From an endosymbiont of unidentified scaly snail isolate Monju (GTDB lineage: Bacteria > Pseudomonadota > Gammaproteobacteria > Chromatiales > Chromatiaceae): 64,000 bases of DNA. Positions 47,766 through 63,511 of the stretch are shown here, one piece after another. The position numbers and the translations under genes were made by a program. The notes beneath the pieces are model-generated. The model was not told the DNA's origin. It worked only from the letters and a program-made list of their open reading frames with translations, and did not search any database. The stretch covers positions 310,001-374,000 of the forward strand of contig NZ_AP012978.1 in NCBI RefSeq assembly GCF_000801295.1, read 5' to 3'. Within the stretch, counting starts at the first letter, position 1. Every line of letters starts with the position of its first letter.

Positions 47766-48006
47766 GATCTTTCTCCAGACGTGTTTCTCTTGTGCCGCGC
47801 ATCCGTGTCGCTTTCGTTGCAGTTGGATGCCGGCTGCCTGTCCCTGGTTACATTGCAGAGTGATAGCGCGAGCGCCTCGCTCGTGGGCAGGGCGCCGGCA
47901 ATATATCGGGGAAGCGCGTTCGTGGCAGGTCAGGCCCTGTCGGGAAGTGGAGACAACCCGGGCCACGCGGTTGCGTCGCAGCAGGAAGAGTAAAGAGAAA
48001 GGGAAG

Positions 48007-48083
<77 letters not shown>

Positions 48084-48287: not shown

Positions 48288-48836
48288 ATGGCGCGCAAGC
48301 TGACCTGGGCCACGGGCCTGCTGATCTTTTTCATGGGTATCGTGTTCACCGGCCTGTTCAACATGGGGCTGGCCTATACCAACGAACTGGAGTTCTGTAC
48401 CTCCTGTCATTCCATGCAGACCAACCTGCGGGAATACAAGGAGACGGTGCACTACAAGAATGCTTCGGGCGTGCGGGCCGTCTGTTCCGACTGTCATGTG
48501 CCCAAGCCTTTTTTCCCCAAGATGATCGCCAAGATCACGGCGGCCAAGGATGTCTGGGGCGAGATCACCGGCAAGATCGACACGCCCGAAAAGTACGAGG
48601 CGTATCGATGGGAGATGGCCAACGTGGTGTGGGACAAGATGAAGGCGACCAACTCGCGGGAGTGCCGTTCCTGTCACGATTTTGGTGCCATGGCCTTCGA
48701 CGAGCAGGACCGCAGTGCCCGCAAGCGCCATGCGCGCGCCGAGGAACGGGGTGAGACCTGTATCGATTGTCATACGGGTATCGCCCACGAGGAACCGGAG
48801 GAGCCGGAGGACGCCGAACAGGCAAGCGAGGGATGA
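48288..48836 (+). CDS. NapC/NirT-type membrane tetraheme cytochrome c
   Basis: 182 residues. One N-terminal membrane anchor (about 8-29) is followed by four CxxCH heme sites: CTSCH (37), CSDCH (66), CRSCH (126) and CIDCH (158). The spacing and the [14 protein letters not shown] segment are typical of the NapC/NirT/CymA quinol dehydrogenases, which pass electrons from the quinol pool to periplasmic partners. The strongly acidic C-terminus ([11 protein letters not shown]) is unusual. It lies at the start of the cytochrome cluster and directly before an exported ankyrin gene. Confidence 0.93.
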
Positions 48837-48837
48837 C

Positions 48838-49785
48838 ATGGCGAGAGGCATGAGATTATGGACAGGTGTGGTAATGGCCTTCGTGCTGATCGGCCAGATT
48901 GCACTGGCCGGCGAGAAGGAAGCCGAACTGCGTGCCGCTGCCACCGTGGGCGATGTCGAGACCATGCGCGAGTTGCTGGATCAGGGGGCTGATGTCGATG
49001 CGCCCAACAAGTACGGCAAGACGGCGCTGATGATGGCGGTGGAAAACGGCAATATCGCGGCGGCCTCGTTGCTGGTCTCCCGGGGAGCCGATGTCAACCG
49101 GCGGACGGTTGCCGGTTGTACCGCGCTGACCTTTGCCGCCGAGAACGGTGAGAACGAGCTGTCTGCCCTGCTGCTGGAGAAGGGGACTGACATGTCGGCG
49201 CGGACTCGTGCCGGGTGGAATGCCCTGATGATCGCCAGCCGCTATGGTCTGGTGGACATGGTCGAACAATTGCTCTTCAAGGGGGCGAAGACCGAGGTCG
49301 CCGACAAGGAAGGACAGACGGCCTTGATGATGGCTGCCGCTGGCGGGTATGTGCCGGTCCTGCGCCTGCTGCTCGCGCACGGGGCCAACATCGAAGCGAG
49401 GGATCACCGCGGGCGCACCGCTCTGACGATCGCCGCTTCGCATGGCCAGGTTGGGGCGATGAAGGAACTGCTGGCACATGGCGCCGCGGTAGACGCCCCG
49501 GCCAGGGATGGGGCCACTCCGTTGATCTGGGCTGCCAGTCAGGGCAAGAAGGAGGCTGTGGCCTTGCTGTTGCAACAGGGCGCGGATGTGAACGCGCGCG
49601 ATGCCGATGGCGTGACCGCCCTGATGGAGGCAGTCAATGTCCGTTCACCGGAGCTCGTGAAGCTGCTGCTCGAACAGGGGGCCGATCCCTTGTTGCGCAA
49701 CCGCGATGGCAAGACGGCCCGCGAGATGGCCAAGGGTGAGCGTAACCGCCAGGTGCGTGCCGTTTTCGAGGTTTACATGAACTGA
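48838..49785 (+). CDS. Exported ankyrin-repeat protein
   Basis: 315 residues. A signal peptide (cleavage near ALAGEKE) precedes about eight ankyrin repeats of 33 residues, each with the GxTALMxA helix start and the loop GADVNAR or similar. It is a periplasmic protein-protein interaction scaffold. The start is 2 bp from the NapC-like stop, so the two are co-transcribed. In other bacteria such periplasmic ankyrin proteins accompany catalases or cytochromes. The partner here is probably the tetraheme cytochrome (inference). Confidence 0.88.
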
Positions 49786-49807
49786 CTGATCCGGTTTGTG
49801 TACAATG

Positions 49808-49836
49808 AAAAATCCCGCCGGTCTGGCGGGATTTTT
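49808..49836. terminator. Bidirectional intrinsic terminator
   Basis: A 12-bp perfect stem (AAAAATCCCGCC / GGCGGGATTTTT) with a 5-base loop and U-run on both strands. It ends the NapC-ankyrin transcript. Confidence 0.9.
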
Positions 49837-49849
49837 CTTGGGCCGTGCC

Positions 49850-50109
49850 TGGCCCGAATATTTCACCGGCCGAACAACGCTATAGCTCTAAGAGGCCGAA
49901 TAATCGAGAAAGAATGGCAAAAAGGGAGGCCAGTCGTCGGTTACAGTATGTCCCCCGCGTTGTTCTATCCCGATTCCGGCGGTTTCTCGCTCGTTGTGGC
50001 CTGGTTTTCATTCAAGCGATAGCGAAGGCTATCGCTTTCGTTCCAAACCGGCGCCACAACGGCTGCGAATTCCGCCGGCTCTCGGGATACCGGTGAAATA
50101 TCCGGGCCA
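49850..50109. mobile_element. Full copy (260 bp) of the dispersed inverted-repeat element
   Basis: The ends TGGCCCGAATATTTCACCGG and, reversed from the right, TGGCCCGGATATTTCACCGG differ at one position. Interior blocks match the copy at 22695-22952. It lies between the terminator of the ankyrin gene and the stop of the convergent cytochrome, 4 bp from the latter. There is no credible coding sequence. Confidence 0.82.
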
Positions 50110-50113
50110 GGGC

Positions 50114-50728
50114 TCACTTGCTGCCCAGCGCGTGGATGATGGCCTCGTAGTCTTCCTTCTTGAGCTTCCTGAATTTCTTTTTCATTTTCTTCGGCATCTC
50201 GCGCTCACCCGAGGCGAACATCTCGAACTGGTGGCGCAGATATTCCATCCACTGGCCACCCAGGATGCCGGCATCGTCCTCGGGGTCGGTACCGAAGTCG
50301 GTATGGCACTTCTTGCACTTGCGTTTGAAGATCTTCTCGCCACGGGCGACCAGCCTGGGATCGGTCTCCTGCTCGCCTGCGTGGCTCTTGAAGGTCTGCC
50401 CGGAGTAGTACTCGGCGATGGCCTTGATGTTGTCCTCGCTCAGCTTCTTGGCAATTTCGACCATGTCGGTTTCGGTGCCATCCTCCTTCTTGAATTTCAG
50501 GCCCGGGCGTTCGCCGTCCCGATAGTCCTCCAGGGCGTCTTCGATGTACTTGGCCGAGTAACCCGCGATGTTGGGTACCTTCGGATCGCTGCTGTTGCCA
50601 TCCTTGCCGTGGCATTCGCCGCACTTTTCGGCCAGGCTGTTGACGTCGGCGGTGCCGATCGCTGGCATGATGGCGAAGGCCAGTCCTGCGCCGAGCAGGG
50701 CGATAGCAAGGGTTCTTGTCTTCAACAT
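50114..50728 (-). CDS. Periplasmic diheme cytochrome c (c4-like)
   Basis: 204 residues. A signal peptide (to about 27) is followed by two class I cytochrome domains: CGECH (36-40) and CKKCH (138-142). The C-terminal region is lysine-rich (MPKKMKKKFRKLKKED). Likely a soluble periplasmic electron carrier. It is separated from the following diheme gene by 136 bp, and both run in the same direction. Confidence 0.9.
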   Translation of the reverse strand: MLKTRTLAIALLGAGLAFAIMPAIGTADVNSLAEKCGECHGKDGNSSDPKVPNIAGYSAKYIEDALEDYRDGERPGLKFKKEDGTETDMVEIAKKLSEDNIKAIAEYYSGQTFKSHAGEQETDPRLVARGEKIFKRKCKKCHTDFGTDPEDDAGILGGQWMEYLRHQFEMFASGEREMPKKMKKKFRKLKKEDYEAIIHALGSK

Positions 50729-50864
50729 GGTAGATATGCTCCTTCGGTCGTGAGTTTCCTGAAGGTGCCCGGCCGTGGGCACCGTGAACCTTGGCGATGG
50801 CCGCCGGGTATCATCGCGGGTGCATTCTAAATGTCGTTTACCGGTCCTTGTCCAGTGATCTGGG

Positions 50865-51614
50865 TTAACGGTTTCCCGGCGCCGGTCGAGCGACGTGCGG
50901 AAAATCGGGGTTGATCCAGCCGGGTCTGGCCAGTTTTTCCGCTGGTGGACGCAGGTGCGAGACATGTGAGAGGACTGCGTTCTCGTCATGCCGGCTGAAG
51001 GCGCGGATCTGCCGCGCCATCTTGCGATCGGCATTGCGTCGCTTGCCGGTGCGGATATGGTCGAACTGGCGCTTGAGGTAGTTGAAGTGTTGCCCCTGCA
51101 ACCGGGGAATGTGGTCTTCGGCATCGCCTTCGCCGTGCTTGCCATGGCAATCCGCGCACTGTTCAGCATAGATGGCCTGTCCCTCGGGCAGCAGGTGTTC
51201 GGGGCCACGACCGTTGTGGGGTGTCATGGGTAACGAGGCCACATAGGCGGCCACGTCCGCGATCTCCTGCGCCCCACCGAGCACGCGGGGAGAGGTGAAG
51301 GCACGCATGATGGGGTTGGCACGGTTGCCGACGCGGATATCGGCCAATTGCTTGATGATGACGCTGGCGAGTTGGCCGGCAATCTGTGGATAGGTGCCGT
51401 CTTCGCGTCCCCAGCCTTCCGGGCCATGGCAACTCACACAATAGATATACAGGCGACGCCCGTTTTTCAGGTCGGGAGCGAGAGACAGTGCGGCTTCGAA
51501 TTCCGTCAGATCCGCCGCTGTTGTGGCTCGACCAGTAAGCAGAATGAGCGTGCTGTATACCAATATGCCCGTTAGTCGAGGTGCAACTCGAAGCCTTTTC
51601 ATACGGAATATCAT
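50865..51614 (-). CDS. Diheme cytochrome c
   Basis: 249 residues. N-terminal signal segment, then CVSCH (59-63) and CADCH (153-157), each followed by the cytochrome c helix. Cytochrome c4-like arrangement. An ATG at 51602 (MKRLRV) would give a more usual signal peptide and is an alternative start. The gene is divergent from the seven-heme lipoprotein, with 188 bp between the starts. Confidence 0.88.
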   Translation of the reverse strand: MIFRMKRLRVAPRLTGILVYSTLILLTGRATTAADLTEFEAALSLAPDLKNGRRLYIYCVSCHGPEGWGREDGTYPQIAGQLASVIIKQLADIRVGNRANPIMRAFTSPRVLGGAQEIADVAAYVASLPMTPHNGRGPEHLLPEGQAIYAEQCADCHGKHGEGDAEDHIPRLQGQHFNYLKRQFDHIRTGKRRNADRKMARQIRAFSRHDENAVLSHVSHLRPPAEKLARPGWINPDFPHVARPAPGNR

Positions 51615-51802
51615 GATTGTCTAAACTACAGTCTTGTATTTGAAAACCCAATGACCCGGTGCTATAAACCTGATGGTCTCACAGAGCCCACATAACTATA
51701 AGGGGTATCCGGGTGGTGAGATCGGGGACAGGGACCGTGCCACATGGCCCCATTCCCGTGTTGATCGATTTGTTTGCCACGACCTCATCAAAGGGGAGAG
51801 TC

Positions 51803-54235
51803 ATGAACAGGAAAGCGATAGCGCTCGCGGTTCTCGGCGCCGTGTTTGTTGCTGGCTGTGCGCCGCAGCAGACGGCCAAGGCGCCGGATTCCGGCGCCAC
51901 GGCGGGCACCGCCACCGCCGATGTCACCAAGCCAAAGAACGATTACAACATTACGGTGAACTATGAGCTGGGCATGCACTGCACCGGCTTCGACTTCACC
52001 TACTGCTGTGTACTGCCGCCATACAACTCGGTGCAGTCCCAGGTCATCAAGACCGCCGATGGCCCCCGGGCCTATCCTGAGCTGCTCGAGTCCGACGAGA
52101 AGGATCACTCTGTTCTTGTCGATGGCAAGAAGCGCTTCAAGCTGGCCTATGGCCACATTGACAACACCTATTCCGAAGGCTCCAAGCTGGCCTACTGGAA
52201 TGTGCCGTACGATGTTGATGGCGATGGCAAGTGGGAGAAGAACGAGAACGTGGCCAACGCCTATTTCACCCACCTGTATGTCTACAAGGACCTGAAGGGC
52301 ACCAACCCCAAGGGCACCAGCAAGGACAGTGAAAAGTTGTTCGTGGGCATCCAGATTCCCGTCCCGCAGGACAATGGCCCGGCTGGTGCCGCCGTCCCCA
52401 GCCCGATGAAGGGTGGCCACCTGCACTACACCGGCGAGAAGGGCACCATCGTGTTCACCAAGTCGCCGGTGCTGGACAATGTGCCCATCGTGCTGACCAA
52501 TCCGGGCATCTGGGATGCGCTGGGCCTGCCGCTGACCCCGTTCACCGACACCGTGGCAGCCAAGAACCCGCTGACCCTGGTCGAGTCCGACGTCCAGCCC
52601 TACCAGATGGCCCAGGTCACCCTGGTGGATGCCGACACCGGCAAGCCGGTGCTCGATTCGCACTCGGGCAAGCCGGTGAGCTTCGTGGGTACCAGCCCGA
52701 TCGATATCCCCAACTGCGCCAACTGTCACGCCAACAAGACGGCCAACGGTGACAAGTACACCCTGTACAAGCAGGAGAAGGCCTTCTGGAAGGGTCTGGG
52801 TGCGTCGGACTGGATCGCCAACCTGAAGGCGACCTCCATCTCCATCATGGAGATCCACGACGACAAGAACGGCACCGACTTCCTGAAGAACTACAGGCCG
52901 AACAGCCGTGATATCAGCAACCGTCTCGGCCGTGACCCGGTGCTGTGCCAGAAGTGTCACGCGGACAACGTGATCGGTGTGCTTCAGTCCAAGACCCACA
53001 AGGAGGATGGCAAGGAGGAGGTGATCCCGGCGCTGACCCAGGCCATCCACACGGTGCACCAGATCAAGGCGCCGCTGCCCGACTCGCAAGGCCGCACCGC
53101 TGCCTGCCAGGGTTGCCACCCGGCACACCGCCAGGACGGCAGCATGGAAGGCTATCCGATCACCCCGGACGGCAAGAACGCCTACGCGGATGCGGACAAC
53201 CGCGATGCCGCCGGTGGCTGCTACGTGGGGCGCGATGTGCACTCCAACCCCGGCAAGGATCGTGATGGTGTGGGCACCAAGGAATACCTCAACGCCATCG
53301 GCCAGTGGTTGCAGGACAACGTCTCGCAGATCGGCAACGGTCAGGGCGGCAAGGGTCTGTGGTGCACCAACTGCCACAACCAGCTGAGCCGTGAGCTGTA
53401 CCAGCGTGACAACCTGCAGAATGCCTTCCTGCAGACCGGCACTACGTTGCGCAACAAGTCGCTGGAGGAGATCGCGGCCGGCATCGGCGTCACCATGGAT
53501 CAGCTCAAGGCCATGATGGACCCGAAGGTGGTGCTCAACGAGAAAGGCGAGGATACCCCGGGCAAGTCCGAGATCCTGCACACCTGGGCCAAGGATCGCC
53601 TGGTTCCGGACATCGCGGTGATCGCGCTGAAGGGTGATGGCCCGCTGGTGCACAAGGACGAGGACGGCGACATCAACGTGGTGCCTCTGTCGGCCAACCC
53701 GGCGGTGGATATCGCCTCGCTGAAGCTGCCGGAAGGGGCTACCGGTGCTGCCGCTGTGCCGTATGACGCCGCGACTCACGGCCGCGATTACTGGCTGTCG
53801 CCCGGTTCCCCGCACTGTGCGGACTGTCACGCCGCGCCCTTCGTCGAGGGTCAGGGCGGTGTTGCCTTCCCGATCAACCAGCCGGGCAAGTACAGCCTGA
53901 TGCGTTACACCAAGGGGCATGCCGGCATCGCCTGTCAGGGTTGTCACGAGTCGATCCACGGTCTGTACCCGGTGACGCCTGAGGTGGACAAGACCACCTA
54001 CGCACAGGCCGCCATGTACAACCCCGATGGTTCGCATGGTCCGCTCAAGTGCGCTTCCTGCCACGAAACCAACTCGGACGGTGTGCCGCTGATCGCCAAG
54101 CACCAGCCCGACGAGGAAGAAGTGGCCGACCGCCACGAGTGGAATGGCAAGCCTATCGAGCATGACTTCGAGGCTGCCGTGCAGTGGATGCACGCTTATG
54201 CCCCGGACCTTGGAGGCAAGATCCCGGAGGAGTGA
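51803..54235 (+). CDS. Seven-heme c-type cytochrome lipoprotein of unrecognised family
   Basis: 810 residues. A lipobox (VFVAGC, C19) predicts an outer-membrane lipoprotein. Residues 45-300 carry no heme but have a distinctive segment, ELGMHCTGFDFTYCCVLPPY (56-74). Seven CxxCH sites follow at 305, 382, 435, 521, 672, 711 and 750. About 90-150 residues separate them, so the hemes are not densely stacked. The start has AGGGGAGA. I could not assign a known enzyme family; a multiheme oxidoreductase or extracellular-electron-transfer component is possible. Downstream are a PpiC and a TlpA-like protein. Confidence 0.85.
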   Translation: MNRKAIALAVLGAVFVAGCAPQQTAKAPDSGATAGTATADVTKPKNDYNITVNYELGMHCTGFDFTYCCVLPPYNSVQSQVIKTADGPRAYPELLESDEKDHSVLVDGKKRFKLAYGHIDNTYSEGSKLAYWNVPYDVDGDGKWEKNENVANAYFTHLYVYKDLKGTNPKGTSKDSEKLFVGIQIPVPQDNGPAGAAVPSPMKGGHLHYTGEKGTIVFTKSPVLDNVPIVLTNPGIWDALGLPLTPFTDTVAAKNPLTLVESDVQPYQMAQVTLVDADTGKPVLDSHSGKPVSFVGTSPIDIPNCANCHANKTANGDKYTLYKQEKAFWKGLGASDWIANLKATSISIMEIHDDKNGTDFLKNYRPNSRDISNRLGRDPVLCQKCHADNVIGVLQSKTHKEDGKEEVIPALTQAIHTVHQIKAPLPDSQGRTAACQGCHPAHRQDGSMEGYPITPDGKNAYADADNRDAAGGCYVGRDVHSNPGKDRDGVGTKEYLNAIGQWLQDNVSQIGNGQGGKGLWCTNCHNQLSRELYQRDNLQNAFLQTGTTLRNKSLEEIAAGIGVTMDQLKAMMDPKVVLNEKGEDTPGKSEILHTWAKDRLVPDIAVIALKGDGPLVHKDEDGDINVVPLSANPAVDIASLKLPEGATGAAAVPYDAATHGRDYWLSPGSPHCADCHAAPFVEGQGGVAFPINQPGKYSLMRYTKGHAGIACQGCHESIHGLYPVTPEVDKTTYAQAAMYNPDGSHGPLKCASCHETNSDGVPLIAKHQPDEEEVADRHEWNGKPIEHDFEAAVQWMHAYAPDLGGKIPEE

Positions 54236-54289
54236 TCCTTTGGGCCCGGAAAGCCGGTCGACCCCCTGGGTCGGCCGGCCCTTCAGTCG

Positions 54290-54314
54290 ACAGGGGGTTA
54301 TGCCCCCTGTTTTT
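54290..54314 (+). terminator. Intrinsic terminator after the multiheme gene
   Basis: ACAGGGGG and CCCCCTGT with a 5-base loop followed by TTTT. It lies between the multiheme lipoprotein and the PpiC gene and may partly uncouple them, allowing higher cytochrome expression. Confidence 0.75.
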
Positions 54315-54379
54315 CGTGGGGCCGGCAGCGCGCAAAGCGCGACCTCAAGGCTCCGCACGCTGTTGGAGTACATCACAGC

Positions 54380-55681
54380 ATGAACAGATTCCCTTTCTAT
54401 CCAAATTCGCTGTTGCACCGCGTCTCCCTGGCGCTCGGTGCCCTCTTGTTGGCCGGTTCCCTGCACGCCAACGCTGGCAACCAGCAGTCGCTGGTGACGA
54501 TAGGTCGCTTGCAGGTCACCGCGGCCGATCTGGAACAGGCCGTGGCCAGTTCGCCCTTTGCGACCCAGTTTGCCGCCATGGACGAAGATGACCAGGCCTC
54601 GTTGCGTGGCGACCTGCTCAAGCGCCTGGTCCTCTCGCGCCTGTTGCGCATCGAGGCCGAGGCCCAGGGGCTGGATCGATCTCCCGAGTTTCTCGAGGAG
54701 GTCGAGAACTTCCGCCTCGGCATGCTCTACCGGCACTATATGGACAAGCTGCGCGAGCGCCTGCGCGTGCCCGATGACGAACTGCTGCGCCTGCGCAAGG
54801 AGAGCAACGGCAATTCCGATGTGTTCACCGCCCTCAAGTCGGCCTATATTTCCGATCGCTATCGCCAGGTACGCCTGCTGACCTTGCAGAAGCTGCGTGA
54901 CGAGCGCCACGTGGTGCTGCACGAAGACCGGATCAAGCCCGGCATCACGCCGGACACAGTGCTGATGGAAGGCGACGGCCTGCGCATCACCTATGGCGAT
55001 GTGATCGAGGTGGCCGAATATCCGAAACTGCCCAATCCCGAGTACGTCAAGGAGCAACTCTACAAGCGTGGGGAGTTGCTACTGATTGCCGATGTTGCGC
55101 AAAAGGAAGGCGTCGATGTCAGCGAACGTGTCGAGGCCTTCCGCAACGAGCGCCTGCCGGCGTTGTTGATCGAGCACAAGGAAAAGGAATGGGTCCCCGA
55201 CGAGGCCGCCATGCGGGCGTACTTCGAAGCTCATCCGGAGCTGGGGCACGTGGTCGAGCGGCGCCATGTCGGACAGCTGGTCACCTCGTCCTACGCCCAG
55301 GCCAAGGCCCTGCGTCGCCGCATCGAGCAGGGCGAGAGTCTGTTCAAGCTGGCCGGTGAATACAGCATCGATCCTTACGGTCGCTCGCACAATGGTGACA
55401 TGGGCTGGGTGCGGCAGGGCAGTGGCATGCCGCAGATCGAGGCTGCGCTGGCCAGGCTGAAGGACGGTGAGGTGAGTCCCATCGTCAAGACACCCAAGGG
55501 ATACCACCTGTTGACCATCGTCGAGCGCCGGCTGGGCCGCATGCGCCCCTTCGAAGGGGTCAGGGACAAGGTCCGCCAGGCCATGATCTCCGAGAAGATG
55601 AAGGCGTTCATCGGCGAGCTGGAGCAGAAGTACCAGATCGTCTGGCATGTGCTGAAGAAACCCGAGGGGGGAGAATCCTGA
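54380..55681 (+). CDS. Periplasmic PpiC/SurA-type peptidyl-prolyl isomerase
   Basis: 433 residues. A signal peptide (to about 31) precedes a helical chaperone region and a C-terminal parvulin domain (about 290-385: RRHVGQLVTSSYAQAKALRRRI, GDMGWVRQGSGMPQIEAAL, KTPKGYHLLTI). It should assist periplasmic folding. Its location between a multiheme cytochrome and a TlpA-like thioredoxin suggests a dedicated client. The stop overlaps the TlpA start. Confidence 0.88.
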   Translation: MNRFPFYPNSLLHRVSLALGALLLAGSLHANAGNQQSLVTIGRLQVTAADLEQAVASSPFATQFAAMDEDDQASLRGDLLKRLVLSRLLRIEAEAQGLDRSPEFLEEVENFRLGMLYRHYMDKLRERLRVPDDELLRLRKESNGNSDVFTALKSAYISDRYRQVRLLTLQKLRDERHVVLHEDRIKPGITPDTVLMEGDGLRITYGDVIEVAEYPKLPNPEYVKEQLYKRGELLLIADVAQKEGVDVSERVEAFRNERLPALLIEHKEKEWVPDEAAMRAYFEAHPELGHVVERRHVGQLVTSSYAQAKALRRRIEQGESLFKLAGEYSIDPYGRSHNGDMGWVRQGSGMPQIEAALARLKDGEVSPIVKTPKGYHLLTIVERRLGRMRPFEGVRDKVRQAMISEKMKAFIGELEQKYQIVWHVLKKPEGGES

Positions 55682-56334
55682 TGAGCGACACGGTATCTGC
55701 CAACAGCCGCTTGCAGGTCGGCGTGGCCGTGCTGGTCGCTGCCGGCGCGGTTGCCTGGCTGGCCGGGCATTTCAGCGAGGCCTCGGTGGAACGCCAGGCC
55801 ACTGCCCAACAAGCCCGGGCATCGGTACAGGAGGCCGCGGCCGACCCGCGCACCACCACCATCACTTTGCCGCAGCGCACCAACAATGCCTGGGAGATGC
55901 CGGTCTTTGAGCTCAAGGGGCTCGACGGCAAGAACCATCGGCTGGCCGACTGGAAGGGCAAGGTCATCATGCTCAACTTCTGGGCGAGCTGGTGTGCGCC
56001 CTGCCAGTACGAGATTCCCGATTTCGTGGAGTATCAGCGCCGCTACGGGGACAAGGGGCTGCAGGTGGTCGGGCTTGGTCTGGACGAAGAGCGCAAGCTG
56101 CGCAATGTGGCCCGTACTCTGGGGATCAACTATCCGGTGCTGGTCGCTGACCTGGCCAACCCCGACAATGCGGCCCTGCTGCCACAATGGGGTAACGGTG
56201 AACAGATCGTGCCCTATACCGTGGTCATCTCGCAGACCGGGCGCATGGTCTACATCCACCGGGGCCGCATGGGGGACGAGGAGTTCAATCTCTACGTCAG
56301 GCCCCTGCTGGAGGGCGAGCGCCAGGCCTCCTGA
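55681..56334 (+). CDS. TlpA-like membrane-anchored thioredoxin
   Basis: 217 residues. One N-terminal membrane anchor (about 11-30), then a thioredoxin fold with the active site WCAPC (C105, C108) and the cis-proline in IVPYTVVI. TlpA/ResA-type proteins reduce disulfides in apocytochromes so heme can be attached. It is translationally coupled to the PpiC gene. The ccm cluster, including CcmG, is convergent beyond the terminator, so this is a second thiol reductant. Confidence 0.92.
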   Translation: MSDTVSANSRLQVGVAVLVAAGAVAWLAGHFSEASVERQATAQQARASVQEAAADPRTTTITLPQRTNNAWEMPVFELKGLDGKNHRLADWKGKVIMLNFWASWCAPCQYEIPDFVEYQRRYGDKGLQVVGLGLDEERKLRNVARTLGINYPVLVADLANPDNAALLPQWGNGEQIVPYTVVISQTGRMVYIHRGRMGDEEFNLYVRPLLEGERQAS

Positions 56335-56412: not shown

Positions 56413-57711
56413 CTATTGCCGCACGCTGTTGATCAGCAACTGGATCGGCTGGTCGCTGTCGTTGGGGGTTTCCACCTCCGGGGCCTGGAGGTCGCCGGCT
56501 TGCGGAATGGGGCGTCCGGACTTGGAGACCCGCGCACCGACCTTCACCCGGGGGAAGCTCGAAAGCCGCATCTGCGGCATCATCGCCATGCCGTCGTTGA
56601 GCCCAACCTTGACCGGCAGTTCCGAGACGCGCTTGCGGACTACCGCCAGTGGCATGGGCGGACCAGAGACGGCCTTGGCGTAGATGAACACGATGTCGTC
56701 GGGCGAGGCCTTGTCCATCAGTTCGGCATCCAGCGCCACCTCCACGGTGAGGCTGGGACCGCCGGTTGCCGGCGCCGGCGAAGTGCCGTTTTCGTTTGTA
56801 CCGGCCGTCATGATCGGCGGCGGTGTCTTGGGTAGATCGGCCTTCAGGCCGCTGCGTTGTTCCACCGCACGGATCAGGTTGCCCAGCTCTTGCTGCAGCG
56901 CAGGTTCCTGGGCCAGCAGGGGCCAGGCGCGAGCCCAGAACTTCAGTGCGTCGGCGTCCTGGTGGCGCTGGCCGGCGGCATTGCCGCGCAGCCAGAGGGC
57001 GGTCGGGTTCTCCGGGTCGAGCTCCAGTACCTTGTCGAGCAGGGTCACGGCCCGCTCGGGCACTTTTCCATCGTTCTGCATCGACAGGGCGTCGGCCAGG
57101 GATATCAGTACCGTGGGATTGTTCGGCAACAAGTCGTTGAGCTTGCCGAAGGCACGGACCGCATCGTCATAGCGTTTGAGTTTCATGTAGGTGCGGCCAA
57201 GCAGGAACCAGCCCTTCGGATTGTTCGGCTCCTGCTGCATGCGTTTTTCCAGTTCGCCTACCAGCTCGGCAATACTGCCCGGCTTGTGCGCAGCATTTTT
57301 CGCGGTCGTGTTGGCGGCCATCTGCTGCGGCGGAGTGTCGATCAGGTCGGGCGACCCGGTCTTGAGGTAGACGCCAGCAACGATGGTTGGCACCAGCACG
57401 ATCACCGCGATCACGGTGGCGATCGCCGAGCGATCGGCGGTGGCCTTGACGGTGCCTTTCTCGACGGCCTCGAGGTCCTGGGCCAGCGCGATCTCGAGAT
57501 CGACCTTGGCCTGCTCGAACTCCTCGTCGGACAGCTCGCCGCGGGCGTGTTCCTTGCGCAGTTCCTCGAGGCGTTCGCGGGCAATGCGGATATCGTATTC
57601 GCGGGAGTCGTCGCTGGGTGGTGGCTGCCGGTTCCGGCGCAGCAGGGGCACGATGAGCAACAGCAGCACCACGGCCAGCAATGCGCCAGCGATCAAAAGA
57701 AAAGCGGTCAT
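56413..57711 (-). CDS. ccmI: Cytochrome c biogenesis protein CcmI
   Basis: 432 residues. Two membrane helices (about 3-24 and 98-116) surround a cytoplasmic leucine-zipper-like segment. Tetratricopeptide repeats follow (about 150-290: GWFLLGRTYMKLKRYDDAVRAFGKL). A C-terminal periplasmic domain completes the long-form CcmI. It binds apocytochrome c C-termini and delivers them to the heme ligase. Its start codon overlaps the ccmH stop. Confidence 0.93.
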   Translation of the reverse strand: MTAFLLIAGALLAVVLLLLIVPLLRRNRQPPPSDDSREYDIRIARERLEELRKEHARGELSDEEFEQAKVDLEIALAQDLEAVEKGTVKATADRSAIATVIAVIVLVPTIVAGVYLKTGSPDLIDTPPQQMAANTTAKNAAHKPGSIAELVGELEKRMQQEPNNPKGWFLLGRTYMKLKRYDDAVRAFGKLNDLLPNNPTVLISLADALSMQNDGKVPERAVTLLDKVLELDPENPTALWLRGNAAGQRHQDADALKFWARAWPLLAQEPALQQELGNLIRAVEQRSGLKADLPKTPPPIMTAGTNENGTSPAPATGGPSLTVEVALDAELMDKASPDDIVFIYAKAVSGPPMPLAVVRKRVSELPVKVGLNDGMAMMPQMRLSSFPRVKVGARVSKSGRPIPQAGDLQAPEVETPNDSDQPIQLLINSVRQ

Positions 57712-58187
57712 CAATCGGTACTCTTGTCGGATGGCTGTTCGAGCAGGTCGGCCGCCTGGGCGATCTGTTCGGCGCTGAGTTCGCGGCGCTCTTCCTGCTG
57801 CCGGGCGCGTCGGATGGCGCGCAGCATGAAGATCACCGCGAGCACGAAGATCACGAAGGGGCCGACCCACAGCACCAGGGTCTTTCCCTTGAAAGGCGGC
57901 TTGTAACGTACGAAATCGCCATAGCGTTCGACCATGAAGTCGATGATCTCCTGCTTGCTCTTGCCGTTCTTGAGCATGCGGAAGACCTTGTGGCGCATGT
58001 CCTGCGCCAGCTCGGCGTTGGAGTCGGCGATGTCCTGGTTCTGGCACACCAGGCAGCGCAGCTCGGTGGTCAGCTCCTTGTAGGTACGCTCCTGTGCAGG
58101 GCTGTCGAAGTCGTAGACCTCGATGTTGGTGGCCAGGGTGCTGAAAGACAGGCTGCCCAGCAGCAGGATCAGCGGCAGTCGTTTCAT
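57711..58187 (-). CDS. ccmH: Cytochrome c biogenesis protein CcmH
   Basis: 158 residues. A signal peptide, the redox motif LRCLVCQNQDIADSNA (C45, C48) and a C-terminal membrane helix (about 104-124) give a short CcmH. It reduces the apocytochrome CxxCH thiols in the Ccm heme-lyase complex. Translation overlaps ccmG and ccmI. Confidence 0.96.
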   Translation of the reverse strand: MKRLPLILLLGSLSFSTLATNIEVYDFDSPAQERTYKELTTELRCLVCQNQDIADSNAELAQDMRHKVFRMLKNGKSKQEIIDFMVERYGDFVRYKPPFKGKTLVLWVGPFVIFVLAVIFMLRAIRRARQQEERRELSAEQIAQAADLLEQPSDKSTD

Positions 58188-58720
58188 TGCTTGTCCTCGA
58201 ACCAGCGCGCGAACTTCTCGCGCCAGGCGGTCTCGTTCAGCGCGCCCTTGTGCTTGGCGCGAATGATGCCGTCGGCGTCGATCAGGAAGGTCTCGGGTGC
58301 GCCATACACGCCCCAGTCGATGGCCGCCGTGCTGTCGGGGTCGAAGGCAACTGCCACGAAGGGGTTGCCGTTCTCGCGCAGCATGGCCTGCCCATCGGCG
58401 CGCTCGTCACGCCAGTCCACGCCGACGATGGGAATGCCGCGCGCCTTCAATTGCAGCAGGTAGGGATGCTCGCGCCAACACTCCGGGCACCAGGTGCCCC
58501 AGAAATTGAGCAGCCAGGGCTTGCCCTTGTAGGCCGAGGGGCGTACTTGCTGCTGGGGGTCGAACAGTTCGGGCAGGGAGAACTCGGGAGCGGCACGCCC
58601 GATGAACTCGGTGGGAATGTCGCGCGGATTGTATTCGCCCTCGCCCATCTGCTGCAGGACGTAGAAGAACAGCCCGGCCAGTACCACGAAGATGCCGAGG
58701 GGAAGGATCGCCTTGTTCAT
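58184..58720 (-). CDS. ccmG: Thioredoxin CcmG/DsbE
   Basis: 178 residues. One membrane anchor and the active site WCPEC (C78, C81) in the context FWGTWCPECWREHP, typical of CcmG. It keeps CcmH or the apocytochrome reduced. It overlaps ccmF by 4 bp and ccmH by 4 bp. Confidence 0.95.
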   Translation of the reverse strand: MNKAILPLGIFVVLAGLFFYVLQQMGEGEYNPRDIPTEFIGRAAPEFSLPELFDPQQQVRPSAYKGKPWLLNFWGTWCPECWREHPYLLQLKARGIPIVGVDWRDERADGQAMLRENGNPFVAVAFDPDSTAAIDWGVYGAPETFLIDADGIIRAKHKGALNETAWREKFARWFEDKQ

Positions 58721-60678
58721 GCGCGGGCCTCCACAGCGTCGTTGACGGTGCTGCGACGTTGCGCAAGCACCCGGTAGCGGCGATCGGCCGCGGCCAGCAG
58801 ACCACCCAGGGCCATGATCAGCGCTCCCAGCCACAGCCAGCGCACGAAGGGCTTGTGATAGACGCGCAGGCTCCAGGCCTGTTTGCCCAGGTCTTCGCCC
58901 AGGGCGACGTAGAGATCGCGGAACAGGCCGGCGTCGATGGCCGCCTCGGTCATCGGCATCTTTTGTACCAGGTAGGTGCGCTTCTGCGGGTGCAGCTCGG
59001 CGATGCGTTCACCCTTGCGATAGGCGGTAATGCTGCCTTCGTAGGCGGTGTAGTTGGGCCCTTCGACGCTGGTCACGCCATTGAACTCGAAGGTGTAGTC
59101 GCCGATCTGGTAGGTTTCGCCCGGCGCCAGGCGAATGTCCTTCTCGGTAGAGTAGGTGGTGGTCATGGCGATGCCGATGACGAATACGCCGATGCCCAGG
59201 TGGCCGAGGATCATGCTCCAGAAGTCCAGCGGCACGTGGCGCAGATTGGCGTATGGGGTCAGGCGTTCGCGCAGCGCGGCCAGAGTGGCGGCGAGCACCC
59301 AGATCCCCAGCGTCAGGCCGAGCACCGTCATGGGGTTGACGAAGGGCACGGCCAGCAGGCCCCAGGCCAGGCCGAGCACCAGTGCGGCGATGGCGGGGAT
59401 GCGCAGTTTCTGCCACAGGCGGGCCGGTTCGTCACGCTTCCAGCGCGCCATGCTGCCGATGCCGATCAGCACGACCAGCGGCAGGGTGAGGATCATGAAG
59501 ATGGTGTCGAAGTAGGGACGTCCCACCGAGATCTTGCCCAGTTGCAGGGCATCCGAGATCAGCGGGTACAGGGTGCCCAGCAGCACGGCCACGGCCGAGA
59601 CCAGCAGGATCACGTTGTTGAGCAGCAGGAAGGTCTCGCGCGAGAGCATCTCGAAGCGCACGCTGCTCTTGATCTCGTTGGCGCGGACGGCATACAGCGC
59701 CAGCGAGGAGCCGACTACGGTGAACAGGAAGGCGAGAATGAAGATTCCGCGTTCCGGGTCGGAGGCGAAGGCATGCACCGAGGTGAGCACGCCGGAGCGC
59801 ACCAGGAAGGTGCCCAGCAGGCTGAGCGAGAAGGAGAAGATCGCCAGCAGCACGGTCCAGGCCTTGAAGGCGCCGCGCTTTTCGGTGACCGCCAGCGAGT
59901 GCATCAGGGCGGTGCCGACCAGCCAGGGCATGAAGGAGGCGTTCTCTACCGGGTCCCAGAACCACCAGCCACCCCAGCCCAGTTCGTAGTAGGCCCACCA
60001 GCTGCCCAGGGTGATGCCCAGGGTGAGGAACAGCCAGGCCATGTTGGTCCAGGGACGCGACCAGCGGGCCCAGGCGGCATCCAGTCGGCCGCCGAGCATG
60101 GCGGCCACCGCGAAGGCGAAGGGGATGGCGAAGCCGACATAGCCCATGTAGAGCATGGGCGGGTGGAACACCAGTCCCGGGTCCTGCAGCAGTGGGTTGA
60201 GGTCACGACCTTCCGGGGCGGGAGGCATCAGACGGTCGAAGGGGTTGGAGGTGAGGATCATGAACAGCAGGAAGCCCACGCTCACCAGGCCGAGTACACC
60301 GAGCACGCGCGCGACCACCACCTCGGGCACGCTGCGACTGAAGAAGGTGACCGCGGTGGTCCAGATGCCTAGGATCAGCGCCCACAGCAGCAGAGAGCCT
60401 TCGTGCGCACCCCAGACCGCGGAGATCAGATAGGGCGTGGGCAGCCGGGTGTTGGAGTTCTGCGCCACGTACAGCACCGAGAAATCGTGTTGCAGGAAGC
60501 TCCAGGTGAGCAGGCCGAAGGCGATGGCGATCACCAGTGCCTGGATGCGTGCCGCCGGGCGTGCTAGGGCGATCCAGCTGCTGATGCCGCGCTGTGCGCC
60601 GATCAGGGGAAATACGCCCTGCACCACGGAGAGGGCCAGGGCCAGGGCCAGCATCAGTTGTCCGAGTTCGGGGATCAT
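58717..60678 (-). CDS. ccmF: Heme lyase subunit CcmF
   Basis: 653 residues with about 14 membrane helices. The tryptophan-rich WWD motif (ELGWGGWWFWDPVENASFMPWL) and conserved histidines (GAHEGSLLLWAL, FHPPMLYMGYVG) are in place. It forms the heme lyase with CcmH and CcmI and takes heme from holo-CcmE. Confidence 0.97.
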   Translation of the reverse strand: MIPELGQLMLALALALSVVQGVFPLIGAQRGISSWIALARPAARIQALVIAIAFGLLTWSFLQHDFSVLYVAQNSNTRLPTPYLISAVWGAHEGSLLLWALILGIWTTAVTFFSRSVPEVVVARVLGVLGLVSVGFLLFMILTSNPFDRLMPPAPEGRDLNPLLQDPGLVFHPPMLYMGYVGFAIPFAFAVAAMLGGRLDAAWARWSRPWTNMAWLFLTLGITLGSWWAYYELGWGGWWFWDPVENASFMPWLVGTALMHSLAVTEKRGAFKAWTVLLAIFSFSLSLLGTFLVRSGVLTSVHAFASDPERGIFILAFLFTVVGSSLALYAVRANEIKSSVRFEMLSRETFLLLNNVILLVSAVAVLLGTLYPLISDALQLGKISVGRPYFDTIFMILTLPLVVLIGIGSMARWKRDEPARLWQKLRIPAIAALVLGLAWGLLAVPFVNPMTVLGLTLGIWVLAATLAALRERLTPYANLRHVPLDFWSMILGHLGIGVFVIGIAMTTTYSTEKDIRLAPGETYQIGDYTFEFNGVTSVEGPNYTAYEGSITAYRKGERIAELHPQKRTYLVQKMPMTEAAIDAGLFRDLYVALGEDLGKQAWSLRVYHKPFVRWLWLGALIMALGGLLAAADRRYRVLAQRRSTVNDAVEARA

Positions 60679-60680
60679 GT

Positions 60681-61136
60681 TCAGTTACCTGTGGCGGTGG
60701 TTTGCATGCGTGCCTTCTCGCCGGCCTTCATGGCGGCGGCGACCTCGGGCGGCATGTAGTTCTCGTCGTGCTTGGCCAGGACCTCGTCGGCCACGAACAC
60801 GCCGTCGGCGTTCAGCTTGCCCTGGGCGATCACGCCCTGGCCCTCGGCGAACAGGTCGGGCAGGATGCCCTGGTAGGCCACGGGGATCTTCTTGTGGAAG
60901 TCGGTGACTACGAAGTGCACGGTGAGGTCGCCTTCGGCGCGCTGCACGCTGCCTTTCTCTACCATGCCGCCGAGGCGGAAGACGTGATCGGCGGGGGCCT
61001 TGCCCTCGGCCACCTCGGTGGGCGAGAAGAAATACGAGAGGTTGCCTTCGAGGGCGTTCAGGACCAGGGAGGTGGCCAGGGCGAGGATTGCCAGGCCGGC
61101 GGCCACCAGGATCAGGCGCTTGTGTCGGGCTTTCAT
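60681..61136 (-). CDS. ccmE: Heme chaperone CcmE
   Basis: 151 residues. One membrane anchor and an OB-fold with the heme-binding HxxxY (H123, Y127 in AKHDENYMPP). It covalently holds heme for transfer to apocytochromes. The ATG at MKARHKR is the family start; the in-frame extension upstream lies over ccmD and was rejected. Confidence 0.96.
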   Translation of the reverse strand: MKARHKRLILVAAGLAILALATSLVLNALEGNLSYFFSPTEVAEGKAPADHVFRLGGMVEKGSVQRAEGDLTVHFVVTDFHKKIPVAYQGILPDLFAEGQGVIAQGKLNADGVFVADEVLAKHDENYMPPEVAAAMKAGEKARMQTTATGN

Positions 61137-61306
61137 CGTTTGTCGGTCTCCAGGCGGTTGAGGCGCGCGATCTGACGCCGGATGCGCGCGGTGCGCGAGC
61201 GCAACAGCAGGGGTTCGAGAATCATGCAGGCGGCGGTCACGCCGAAGGAACCCCACACGTAGAGGGCGTACTTGCCCATGTCCAGTTTTTCGAGAATGCT
61301 GCTCAT
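61133..61306 (-). CDS. ccmD: Heme exporter protein CcmD
   Basis: 57 residues. A short MGKYALYVWGSFGVT segment leads into one membrane helix, then a charged tail (RTARIRRQIARLNRLE). This is the usual size and topology of CcmD, which aids release of holo-CcmE from CcmABC. Start and stop overlap ccmC and ccmE by 4 bp. Confidence 0.93.
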   Translation of the reverse strand: MSSILEKLDMGKYALYVWGSFGVTAACMILEPLLLRSRTARIRRQIARLNRLETDKR

Positions 61307-62052
61307 GCCCGCTCTCCGATCAGTTCTCGCACCCAGGTGGCCCCGACCTCGCGCTCGAGGATGATGGCGCGTACCCGCACCATGGCGGCGGCGATGCTGT
61401 AGGCCCAGAAGCCCAGAGCCATGATGAGCATGGTCAGCAACATGGTCTCGTCCATGCTCGTCTGGCCATTCATCTTGATGGTGGCGCCCTGGTGCAGGGT
61501 GTTCCACCACTTCACCGAGAAATAGATGATGGGTACGTTGACCACCCCGACCAGCAACAGAATGGCGCCGGCGCGGTCGGCGCGGCGGCGGTCGTCGATG
61601 GCCCCGACCAGCGCCATGTAGCCGAGGTAGAGGAACAGCAGGATCAGTTCGGAGGTGATGCGCGCGTCCCACACCCACCAGGTGCCCCACATGGGTTTGC
61701 CCCAGAAGGAGCCGGTCCACAGCGAGACGAAGGCGAACATGGCTCCGGTGGGGGCCAGCGCCTGGGCCATCATGGCCGAGAGCCGGGTGTTGAAGACCAG
61801 GCCGATGGCGCTCCAGCCGGCCATCACGATATAGATGAACATCGACATCCAGGAGGCGGGGACATGGATGAAGATGATGCGGTAGCCGTCGCCCTGCTTG
61901 TAGTCGACCGGTGCAACAAAAAAGCTCATGTACAGGCCGATACCGATGAGCACGATCGCCAACACCCAGAAGATCGGGGCCAGGCGCCCGGCCAGCGGAT
62001 AGAAGGTGGCGGGCGAAGAAAACTTGAACCAGTTGATAAGCCTGTTCTGCAT
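61303..62052 (-). CDS. ccmC: Heme-handling protein CcmC
   Basis: 249 residues with six membrane helices. It has the WWD domain GTWWVWDARITSELILL and two conserved histidines (IFIHVPASWMSM, NTLHQG). It attaches heme to CcmE. It is separated from ccmB by 141 bp, the only real gap in the operon. Confidence 0.96.
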   Translation of the reverse strand: MQNRLINWFKFSSPATFYPLAGRLAPIFWVLAIVLIGIGLYMSFFVAPVDYKQGDGYRIIFIHVPASWMSMFIYIVMAGWSAIGLVFNTRLSAMMAQALAPTGAMFAFVSLWTGSFWGKPMWGTWWVWDARITSELILLFLYLGYMALVGAIDDRRRADRAGAILLLVGVVNVPIIYFSVKWWNTLHQGATIKMNGQTSMDETMLLTMLIMALGFWAYSIAAAMVRVRAIILEREVGATWVRELIGERA

Positions 62053-62160
62053 GTGATTGCGGTGTGTTGGGGGTGGTTCGGGCGAGCCGTGAGGTTAACC
62101 GATGATCTAGACCCACGCAAAAGGCGCAAGTTCACCCTTGCCGTCGGTGTCTCGTGGATT

Positions 62161-62176
62161 TATGACGCAGGTCATA
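62161..62176. promoter_or_regulatory. Crp/Fnr-like palindrome in the ccmB-ccmC gap
   Basis: TATGACGCAGGTCATA is a perfect inverted repeat, i.e. TATGA-N6-TCATA, the spacing of Crp-family sites. It is 109 bp upstream of ccmC. Significance is uncertain. Confidence 0.4.
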
Positions 62177-62193
62177 TCGGCCTGCGAACGTGG

Positions 62194-62862
62194 TCATTCG
62201 CTGGCGACTCGCAGTGCGGCTGCGGTGGCCAGCGGGGTGCCGAGGAGGGCCACCAGCAGGATGGCCCCGAGCATCGACAGGTGCGCCCCGCCGCCCAGGC
62301 CCGAGGTGGTTGCCTCCACCGCGCCGGCGCCGAAGATCAGCACCGGAATGTAGAGTGGCAGCACCAGCAGAGCCACCAGCACGCCACCCGAACGCAGCCC
62401 CAGGGTGAGTGCCGCGCCGATGGCGCCCAGCAGGCTGAGGGGGGGCGTGCCCAGCAGCAGCGACCAGACCATGACGGTCAGTGCCTCGGCCGAGAGGTCG
62501 TATTGCAGGCCCAGCACCGGGGCCATGATCACCAGCGGCAGGCCGGTGATCAGCCAGTGCGCGATCACCTTGCCGATCACCAGCAGCGGCAGCGGTTGTG
62601 GGGCCAGCAGCATCTGTTCGAGGGTGCCGTCGCGGTGGTCGGCCAGGAACAGTTGCTCGAGTGCCAGCATGGAGGCGAGCAGGGCGCCTACCCAGACCAC
62701 CCCGGGGGCAATCAGGCGCAGGGTGTCGAGTTCCGGGCCGATACCCAGCGGGAACAGGCTGACCACGATGAGGAAGAAGATCAGGGTGGTGAACACATCG
62801 GTGCGCCGACGCAGGGCGATGGTCACGTCGCGGCGCACGATCCAGAACAGCGCCTCAAGCAT
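62194..62862 (-). CDS. ccmB: Heme exporter membrane subunit CcmB
   Basis: 222 residues with six membrane helices and the family's DHRDGTLEQMLLAPQPLPLLVIGKV segment. It forms the CcmAB ABC transporter that drives release of holo-CcmE. It overlaps ccmA by 8 bp. Confidence 0.96.
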   Translation of the reverse strand: MLEALFWIVRRDVTIALRRRTDVFTTLIFFLIVVSLFPLGIGPELDTLRLIAPGVVWVGALLASMLALEQLFLADHRDGTLEQMLLAPQPLPLLVIGKVIAHWLITGLPLVIMAPVLGLQYDLSAEALTVMVWSLLLGTPPLSLLGAIGAALTLGLRSGGVLVALLVLPLYIPVLIFGAGAVEATTSGLGGGAHLSMLGAILLVALLGTPLATAAALRVASE

Positions 62863-63511
62863 GGCTCACCTCCGGGGTCTCCGCGCCCAGAGTGACACAG
62901 CAGACGGTGCCCGAGGTCAGATCGACCTCCTGGTGGGTGGTAAGGATGACCATGCCGCCACGTGCCAGGTGATCGCGGATCACCGCCTGCAGGGTGTTCA
63001 CCGCGGCCACGTCCAGGGCACTGAAGGGTTCGTCCAGGATCCACAGTGCCGCCCGGCTGCACCACAGGCGGGCCAGTGCCACGCGGCGCTTCTGACCCTG
63101 CGAGAGGTGCTTGATCGGCAGGTCCTCGTGACCGCTCAGACCAATGTCTTCGAGCAACCGCCAGGCGGCCTGTTCATCCATGGCATGGCCGCGCACCGCG
63201 CCGTCCATGCGCAGGTTCTCGATGGCGTTGAGGTCGCCCTTGAGCGCGTTGAGATGGCCGAGATAGAGCAGCTCGTCGTGGAAGGCGTCGCGCTGGCGCT
63301 GGATCGGCTCGCCATTCCACAACACCTCGCCCGATTCCGGCTGCAGCAGCCCCGCCAGGGTGCGCAGCAGGGTGGTCTTGCCACTGCCGTTGGGACCACG
63401 CAGGTACATCAGCTGGCCGCTCTCGAGCGAGAAGTCGAGGCAGCGGAACAGCTGCCGGTCTCCCCGGCTGCAGCAGAGCTTGCTGGTCTCCAGGCGGTGG
63501 GTTGGGTTCAC
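62855..63511 (-). CDS. ccmA: Heme exporter ATPase CcmA
   Basis: 218 residues. Walker A GPNGSGKTT, signature LSQGQKRRVALARL, Walker B LWILDEPFSALD, and the H-loop TTHQ. It is the ATPase of CcmABCD. It is the first gene of the ccmABCDEFGHI run. Confidence 0.97.
   Translation of the reverse strand: MNPTHRLETSKLCCSRGDRQLFRCLDFSLESGQLMYLRGPNGSGKTTLLRTLAGLLQPESGEVLWNGEPIQRQRDAFHDELLYLGHLNALKGDLNAIENLRMDGAVRGHAMDEQAAWRLLEDIGLSGHEDLPIKHLSQGQKRRVALARLWCSRAALWILDEPFSALDVAAVNTLQAVIRDHLARGGMVILTTHQEVDLTSGTVCCVTLGAETPEVSHA

Follow-up and report, generated by a model that had tools for sequence, protein, structure and literature searches.

A conserved heptaheme cytochrome with a prolyl isomerase partner in sulfur-oxidising bacteria and methanotrophs

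Introduction

The chromosome of the endosymbiont of the unidentified scaly snail isolate Monju (Chromatiaceae) encodes a large seven-heme cytochrome, and the question that its locus raises is what such a protein does and with which partners. The gene (51803..54235, + strand) lies in a window of 64,000 nucleotides (contig NZ_AP012978.1, positions 310,001 to 374,000) and specifies an 810-aa heptaheme lipoprotein with seven CxxCH sites and a lipobox, designated here MHC7. The initial annotation had described around it a cluster of NapC-like, ankyrin, two diheme cytochrome, PpiC and TlpA genes, all of which are indeed present, and had read the whole as a quinol-to-outer-membrane pathway with its own folding helpers.

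Only part of the path that sulfide electrons take between quinone pool, oxidases and the cytochromes of the periplasm has been worked out; many oxidases are themselves inhibited by sulfide. MHC7 belongs to a known kind of protein, the multiheme c-type cytochromes; its value lies in its wide conservation and in its being open to experiment. We read it, with a probability of about one half, as an extracytoplasmic heptaheme electron carrier of sulfide and sulfur respiration that has a dedicated prolyl isomerase.

An undescribed and well-conserved family

Searches of Pfam and NCBIfam returned for MHC7 only generic c-type heme matches or weak matches below cut-off, and nothing inside residues 41-303. 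No PDB sequence was matched by phmmer, and profile searches against the PDB gave marginal matches only, the best of them (E 0.0011) to a nitrite reductase over two heme sites. AlphaFold2 models of the full protein (pLDDT 70, pTM 0.73) and of its N-terminal domain (pLDDT 79) had no PDB fold match at E <= 0.001; MtrC, third in rank for the N-terminal domain at a Foldseek E value of 1.3 and a probability of 0.06, was not counted. The earlier statement that the lipoprotein matches no recognised family thus withstood sequence and fold searches, and profile search together with structure prediction assigned it to no characterised enzyme family. The literature searched, that of journals accessible without subscription, holds no recognisable description of the family apart from a possible case in PMC10205796. 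The MHC7 family is undescribed and well conserved, and it is unnamed as far as literature searches reach.

The genome scan found 150 relatives, of which the best 80 were used, with more distant lineages, including any Verrucomicrobia, beyond that set. Window MHC7 and 63 of those 80 relatives make up a 64-row alignment, in which the relatives are 63-97% identical to the window protein. The CxxCH sites of the latter stand at residues 305, 382, 435, 521, 672, 711 and 750 in a heme region spanning 305-754, and all seven are invariant in the 64 rows. Residues 41-303 contain no CxxCH and form, according to the model, a mainly beta domain, whose mean column identity (79%) exceeds that of the whole protein (72%). 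Near its start lies the motif ELGMHCTGFDFTYCC (residues 55-69; 51965..52009, + strand), which includes H59, C60, C68 and C69 and belongs to a stretch, Y48-S76, of which most is invariant. H59, C60 and C68 occur in 64/64 rows and C69 in 63/64; with GMHC and YC invariant and the second Cys of YCC missing from a single row, chance is therefore ruled out. The heme-free N-terminal third, singled out earlier for its GMHC and YCC motifs, is thus both conserved and unmatched.

Weak matches in the window's own bacterial family led to nine-CxxCH cousins (L113-L117, L119, L120, L122-L125; about 750-1,100 aa) and to two long sisters (L118, 5973-9434; L121, 6368-9748; 1,130-1,150 aa, likewise with nine CxxCH). 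The sisters keep ELGMHC and YCC and are 45% identical to MHC7, whereas the cousins carry the motif NDLGMHC, have no YCC and reach 24-28%. Both groups have aligned counterparts of all seven MHC7 CxxCH sites, of GMHC, of the seven distal His and of Cys60 and Cys473; two extra CxxCH, a mostly longer N-terminus and other neighbourhoods distinguish them from it.

Several of these relatives have features of their own. Within the window's bacterial family some genomes have more than one NDLGMHC cousin, the matches of the four long relatives L113, L117, L118 and L120 were to generic heme or PKD families alone, and in L117, L123 and L125 an apparent response regulator and sensor kinase, identified by eye, stand beside the cousin gene.

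An alignment of 17 diverse members of this wider family (four MHC7, two sisters, 11 cousins) keeps all seven MHC7 heme sites. Outside the CxxCH sites it holds exactly seven invariant His (H59, H352, H416, H419, H706, H719 and H797) and two invariant Cys (C60 and C473). The seven histidines likely provide one distal ligand per heme, so that all seven hemes would be bis-His, and hence MHC7 would be a carrier. By this alignment-dependent assignment H59 of GMHC would reach out from the heme-free domain to serve as one of the distal ligands, and Cys60 and Cys473 may form a disulfide. A Cys as distal heme ligand, as in the His/Cys-ligated sulfur cytochromes of the DsrJ/SoxA/TsdA type, might be considered for these two invariant residues, but seven His already suffice.

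Gene neighbourhood across relatives

PpiC is the fixed partner of MHC7, usually with TlpA, while NapC and the ankyrin protein are optional. Of the 70 MHC7 loci with 900 bases of room, 64 have ppiC immediately downstream and in the same orientation, and two of the six misses (L021, L069) have it upstream instead. Among the 40 well-flanked loci, those in which MHC7 is preceded by 4.5 kb or more and followed by at least 4 kb, ppiC lies nearby in 39, tlpA in 32 and a c4-type diheme gene in 24; the figures for napC, ankyrin and ccmA are 14, 7 and 6. The folding helpers of the initial annotation are therefore upheld by conservation, NapC and the ankyrin protein are not, and the cytochrome c maturation (ccm) operon is a neighbour rather than a conserved partner.

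Around this core the loci differ by lineage. In Nitrospinota, dsr membrane-complex genes were found in four of the five loci with at least 2.6 kb upstream: they precede MHC7 in L074, L076 and L079, dsrO and dsrP precede it in the cut locus L080, and the fifth locus with upstream room, L082, has none. Genes of the dsrMKJOP set thus occur in some MHC7 loci, and in L074 DsrK and DsrO were confirmed by model, with DsrP below cut-off. In the Gallionellaceae loci L028 and L029, apr-sat (AprA 914 bits) lies on one side of MHC7 and a soeA-like gene on the other; Pfam assigns the soe-like genes to molybdopterin and DmsC families, and the Soe names are ones that we presume. An fccB gene is found in L042, by Pfam FCSD domains, and in L049, and in L133 (97-3638) and L135 (1628-5501) napC, the genes of an exported ankyrin protein and a diheme cytochrome, and fccB form a single row; a weak FccB-like match in L044 (27%) was left uncounted. 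In L041 and L063, napA, napG and napH, named by eye, stand just upstream of MHC7, which suggests that some lineages tie MHC7 to the reduction of nitrate in the periplasm.

A gene for an apparently exported protein of about 300 aa without a Pfam match, presumably DUF302-like, was also noted directly before MHC7 in L074 (8870-9775), L075, L076, L079 and L081; in L074, L076 and L079 this Nitrospinota gene sits between dsrP and MHC7.

An oxidase subunit I gene is present in 14 of the 80 loci, ten of which are methanotroph-labelled, and the typical methanotroph order is coxII-coxI-diheme-MHC7-ppiC. The L059 copy is Pfam COX1, its subunit II matches COX2, and the oxidase carries HPIVYFW, which we take to be typical of ba3-type oxidases. 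The CuA oxidase beside MHC7 in most methanotroph loci is probably of the B type.

Distribution and the link to sulfur oxidation

The hosts of MHC7 are methanotrophs and sulfur oxidisers of the Dsr type, the latter from the gamma- and betaproteobacteria and the Nitrospinota. In a quick tree built without bootstrap, Nitrospinota split off, 12 methanotroph-labelled rows stand together within Pseudomonadota, and seven rows, the betaproteobacteria among them, cluster amid the sulfur-oxidiser rows.

The association was quantified in 369 unselected genomes of the window's class (dsrA at E <= 1e-40). MHC7 proper was found in 14 of these, a fifteenth match (G014) being a long sister, and dsrA in 118. 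MHC7 genomes carry dsrA in 12 of 14 cases, against 106 of the 355 others (Fisher p 3.7e-5), and when bacterial families are counted instead, eight of the nine with MHC7 also count as dsrA families (p about 1e-3). A second, hand-picked set comprises the 48 genomes that contain 50 of the 80 loci; the sets of 80 genomes used for dsrA and FccB and of 40 used for the B-type oxidase were likewise hand-picked. It should be noted that some L and G records are the same genomes, that the counts of the class sample and of the 48 genomes overlap, and that L049 and L133 are apparently one contig. Among the 48, dsrA is present in 31 of 35 non-methanotrophs (7/9 Nitrospinota) and in none of the 13 methanotroph-labelled genomes. 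FccB was detected in seven of those 13, in one case barely above cut-off, and in two of the four other dsrA-less genomes. For Nitrospinota, the available text of PMC10839748 reports dsrAB, mostly of the oxidative type, in some classes of the phylum, including groundwater genomes.

The window's organism is very probably a sulfur oxidiser itself, because its genome has dsrA (645 bits) and a dsr cluster, in which DsrC, DsrF, DsrK and DsrO were recognised by model and DsrP fell below cut-off; DsrJ and DsrL are presumed members of the same cluster.

Other associations were considered and dropped. Neither FccB nor the B-type oxidase qualified as a constant partner, neither being enriched. Methane oxidation was set aside for the gammaproteobacterial set, where PF02461 was absent from 19 genomes, but no control genome matched it either, so that this absence carries no weight. 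For iron oxidation, Table 1 of the Gallionellaceae pangenome, in the available text of PMC10734462, shows no seven-heme cluster, and the relatives there adjoin apr-sat.

Location of MHC7

The window protein carries the lipobox VAGC with Cys19 and is probably an outer-membrane lipoprotein, judging from its N-terminus. An N-terminal export segment is found in the family, that of the window being of the lipoprotein type. Lipoboxes were counted by regular expression, first as 30/77 and, after a change of pattern, as 32 of 78 relatives with a readable N-terminus, at least L010 being apparently missed; the pattern found none in the other 46, including 0/9 Nitrospinota and 0/13 readable oxidase-linked relatives. 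Since these 46 have no lipobox by pattern, the anchor cannot be essential to the function of the family.

A porin of the MtrB/PioB type (TIGR03509) was found in 0/19 MHC7 genomes, though the control genomes gave no match either, and an MtrAB-like system was dropped on this result, with its equally silent controls. Pfam gave no porin match among the seven cluster proteins of the window, while the neighbours of the relatives were read by eye only. As a family trait, the quinol-to-outer-membrane pathway proposed earlier is not supported, given the scarcity of NapC, ankyrin and lipobox and the porin that was not found, the last with the same reservation about controls.

Proposed role and alternative readings

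The initial proposal for the function of the cluster thus holds for the folding helpers, is not supported as regards a general quinol-to-outer-membrane route, and is overshadowed by a stronger signal, the link to sulfide and sulfur oxidation. In the circuit proposed for the window, Dsr sulfur oxidation would reduce the quinone pool, an MHC7 tethered to the outer membrane would exchange electrons in the periplasm with NapC and with the c4-type diheme cytochromes, and the electrons would end at a terminal oxidase or nitrate reductase. A Cys60-Cys473 disulfide would lock the heme-free N-terminal domain onto the heme domain, and TlpA and PpiC would be needed for that. In methanotrophs MHC7 stands directly after a CuA oxidase and a diheme cytochrome and would therefore feed that oxidase, the direction of electron flow being a proposal only. 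MHC7 is shared by Dsr oxidisers of two phyla and by methanotrophs, its folding partner is fixed and H2S may induce it, which makes it a concrete candidate for the sulfide-electron step.

Several observations weigh against a carrier of sulfide respiration. MHC7 evolves very slowly, which is unusual for a mere carrier, and its 64-row family has three further invariant His (H442, H480, H671), giving ten in total rather than seven. The sampled class is about one third dsrA-positive, so the link is partly one of guild membership; dsrA is lacking in two of the 14 MHC7 genomes of the class sample and in four of the 35 non-methanotrophs. Six of the 13 methanotrophs have no FccB, in a scan that did not extend to sulfide:quinone reductase. 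FccB is present in 12/19 MHC7 genomes versus 31/61 others, and the B-type oxidase of the gammaproteobacterial set in 5/19 versus 3/21; the window's own genome has neither.

An alternative is an oxidoreductase acting directly on a sulfur compound. The N-terminal domain, with its Cys60 and Cys68/69, and Cys473 from between the hemes would bind the compound while the seven hemes carry the electrons off. The better conservation of the N-terminal domain than of the whole protein fits this, as do the cysteines, Cys60 and Cys473 being invariant even in the nine-CxxCH cousins and Cys68 within the family, and the histidines H442, H480 and H671, which recur in the 1,150-aa sisters, not in the cousins, and are unneeded as distal ligands; the place of the gene by an oxidase and a diheme cytochrome in methanotrophs would also suit an enzyme feeding the oxidase. 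It is nevertheless an unlikely reading, given that the seven universal non-CxxCH His leave no heme without a candidate sixth ligand and that no significant sequence or fold match to a sulfur enzyme was obtained. A more specific form of it appears distinctly doubtful: a sulfide- or polysulfide-oxidising enzyme at the cell envelope in which a new beta domain with GMHC and YC(C), together with the inter-heme Cys, would pass electrons through the seven hemes to the diheme cytochrome and the oxidase without involving the quinone pool, and would do so in methanotrophs and Nitrospinota as well as in the other sulfur oxidisers. Rated on a par with the oxidoreductase reading as a whole is a surface route, in which electrons would pass from quinol to NapC, then through the periplasm and finally to a lipoprotein exposed at the surface, where they would be exchanged with partner cells or solids, outward or inward as uptake. 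Ala at +2 after the lipobox usually marks sorting to the outer membrane under the Lol rule, and the window protein has it; a weak similarity to MtrC/MtrF heme domains (Pfam PF22113, 2.4e-5, 24.4 bits, cut-off 30) points the same way. Among known systems, the Uet surface complex also includes a prolyl isomerase (PMC10734462, available text), and the available text of PMC11267869 describes Allochromatium vinosum genes 1092-1095 as rising on solid pyrite and 7- or 8-heme cytochromes as enhanced, but among the ten c-type cytochromes that it lists as upregulated there is an 8-heme protein and no 7-heme one. The 46 of 78 relatives without a lipobox by pattern, the lack of porin matches in the 19 genomes (controls silent) and in the seven cluster proteins, and the presence of napC in only 14 of the 40 well-flanked loci count further against such a route. 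Finally, MHC7 might be a general periplasmic electron hub for nitrate and oxygen, found in sulfur oxidisers by guild only, as the nap genes of L041 and L063, the oxidase genes in 14 of 80 loci and the lack of any single constant sulfur enzyme in the neighbourhood would allow; its near-restriction, among the genomes seen, to two sulfide-handling guilds, with just two of the 14 class-sample genomes lacking dsrA, makes this improbable.

Comparison with known systems

For the carrier of sulfide respiration, the closest published counterpart may be the 89-kDa heptahaem cytochrome c MFUM_v2_1950 of Methylacidiphilum fumariolicum SolV, which the available text of PMC10205796 presents as the most H2S-induced gene (15.7-fold), induced with a ba3 oxidase, and for which the authors suggest an electron carrier. 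The 35 MHC7 rows longer than 790 aa amount to 85-90 kDa without heme. The two thus agree in their seven hemes, in mass, in the methanotroph host and in an oxidase, ba3-type and co-induced in one case, CuA-type and adjoining in the other; they differ in that the neighbour named in that text, MFUM_v2_1951, is annotated as a starvation-inducible outer membrane lipoprotein and not PpiC. MFUM_v2_1950 is probably an MHC7 relative, as compared by mass and heme number only, and the family could give meaning to this strongly induced, unexplained methanotroph gene.

MtrC combines beta domains with heme domains. MHC7 resembles MtrC, MtrF and OmcA in having both and in a weak Pfam similarity to their domains II/IV, but MtrC and OmcA have ten CxxCH, against seven in the window protein and its family. 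As to a lipid anchor, the window MHC7 has a lipobox and 46 of 78 relatives show none by pattern. The Uet undecaheme complex, as set out in the available text of PMC10734462, shares with the MHC7 cluster the pairing of a multiheme cytochrome with a prolyl isomerase gene, yet the window cluster has no counterpart of its porin, its NHL-repeat proteins or its three triheme cytochromes; a porin gene in the cluster marks porin-cytochrome systems such as PCC3 and Uet, and none of the seven window cluster proteins matches a porin. The Methylobacter extracellular electron transfer cluster in the available text of PMC13322032 was rejected as a counterpart, being MtrAB-like and a different locus from MHC7.

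A parallel to the upstream genes is the fccAB operon of A. vinosum. The available text of PMC11267869 gives Alvin_1092-1095 as fccB, fccA, an uncharacterised gene and a 4-heme cytochrome, induced on pyrite, and credits the organism with one 7-heme cytochrome. L133 and L135 share the NapC-ankyrin pair seen in the window at 48288-49785, and so would this operon, in which we infer Alvin_1094 to be the ankyrin gene; in the window, however, no FccB follows the pair, and two opposite-strand c4-type diheme genes stand there instead. An ankyrin protein of the Riftia symbiont is read as host-directed in the available text of PMC7787665; the role of some ankyrin genes of symbionts may rather lie in the oxidation of sulfide.

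Other features of the locus

The cluster opens with napC (48288..48836, + strand), which encodes a tetraheme quinol dehydrogenase of the NapC/NirT type, with a hydrophobic segment at the N-terminus and CxxCH at positions 37, 66, 126 and 158; it matches Pfam PF03264 (7.6e-70; 234.6 bits, cut-off 24.1) and stays below the NCBIfam NapC/NirT subfamily cut-off (TIGR02161, 222.3 versus 310.6 bits). The start of the ankyrin gene (48838..49785, + strand) adjoins the napC stop, and its product has eight Pfam Ank stretches and a signal peptide seen by eye in the translation. Two diheme genes follow on the minus strand, each with two CxxCH: a c4/FccA-like cytochrome c of 205 aa (50114..50731; Pfam PF00034), which at 118 bits is below the NCBIfam PdsA cut-off of 330, and a c4-like one of 249 aa (50865..51614; PF00034/PF13442). 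Between MHC7 and ppiC lies a terminator-like hairpin with a T tail (54293..54308, + strand), a weak indication, since the region holds 11 sites of this kind where 5.7 would be expected. The ppiC gene (54380..55681, + strand) encodes a SurA/PpiC-type prolyl isomerase (Pfam PF00639, 2.9e-15) and overlaps by one base with tlpA (55681..56334, + strand), which encodes a TlpA/ResA-like thioredoxin (Pfam Redoxin/AhpC-TSA).

The ccm operon reported next to the cluster was confirmed at 56413..63511 (- strand), where NCBIfam recognises CcmA, B, C, E, F, G, H and I; the CcmH call comes from the NrfF model only, below cut-off, and CcmD was outside the scan. On the other side, a tRNA-Arg (ccg) gene (48007-48083, - strand) separates napC from the gene of a 519-aa peptidoglycan-binding lipoprotein (46215-47774, - strand), which has many similar repeats ('PARYKT' with 'RKIEIPA') and a C-terminal peptidoglycan-binding domain, its sole Pfam match (PF01471). 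Further upstream, 40671-41417 (+ strand) encodes a peroxiredoxin-glutaredoxin fusion protein with Redoxin and Glutaredoxin domains.

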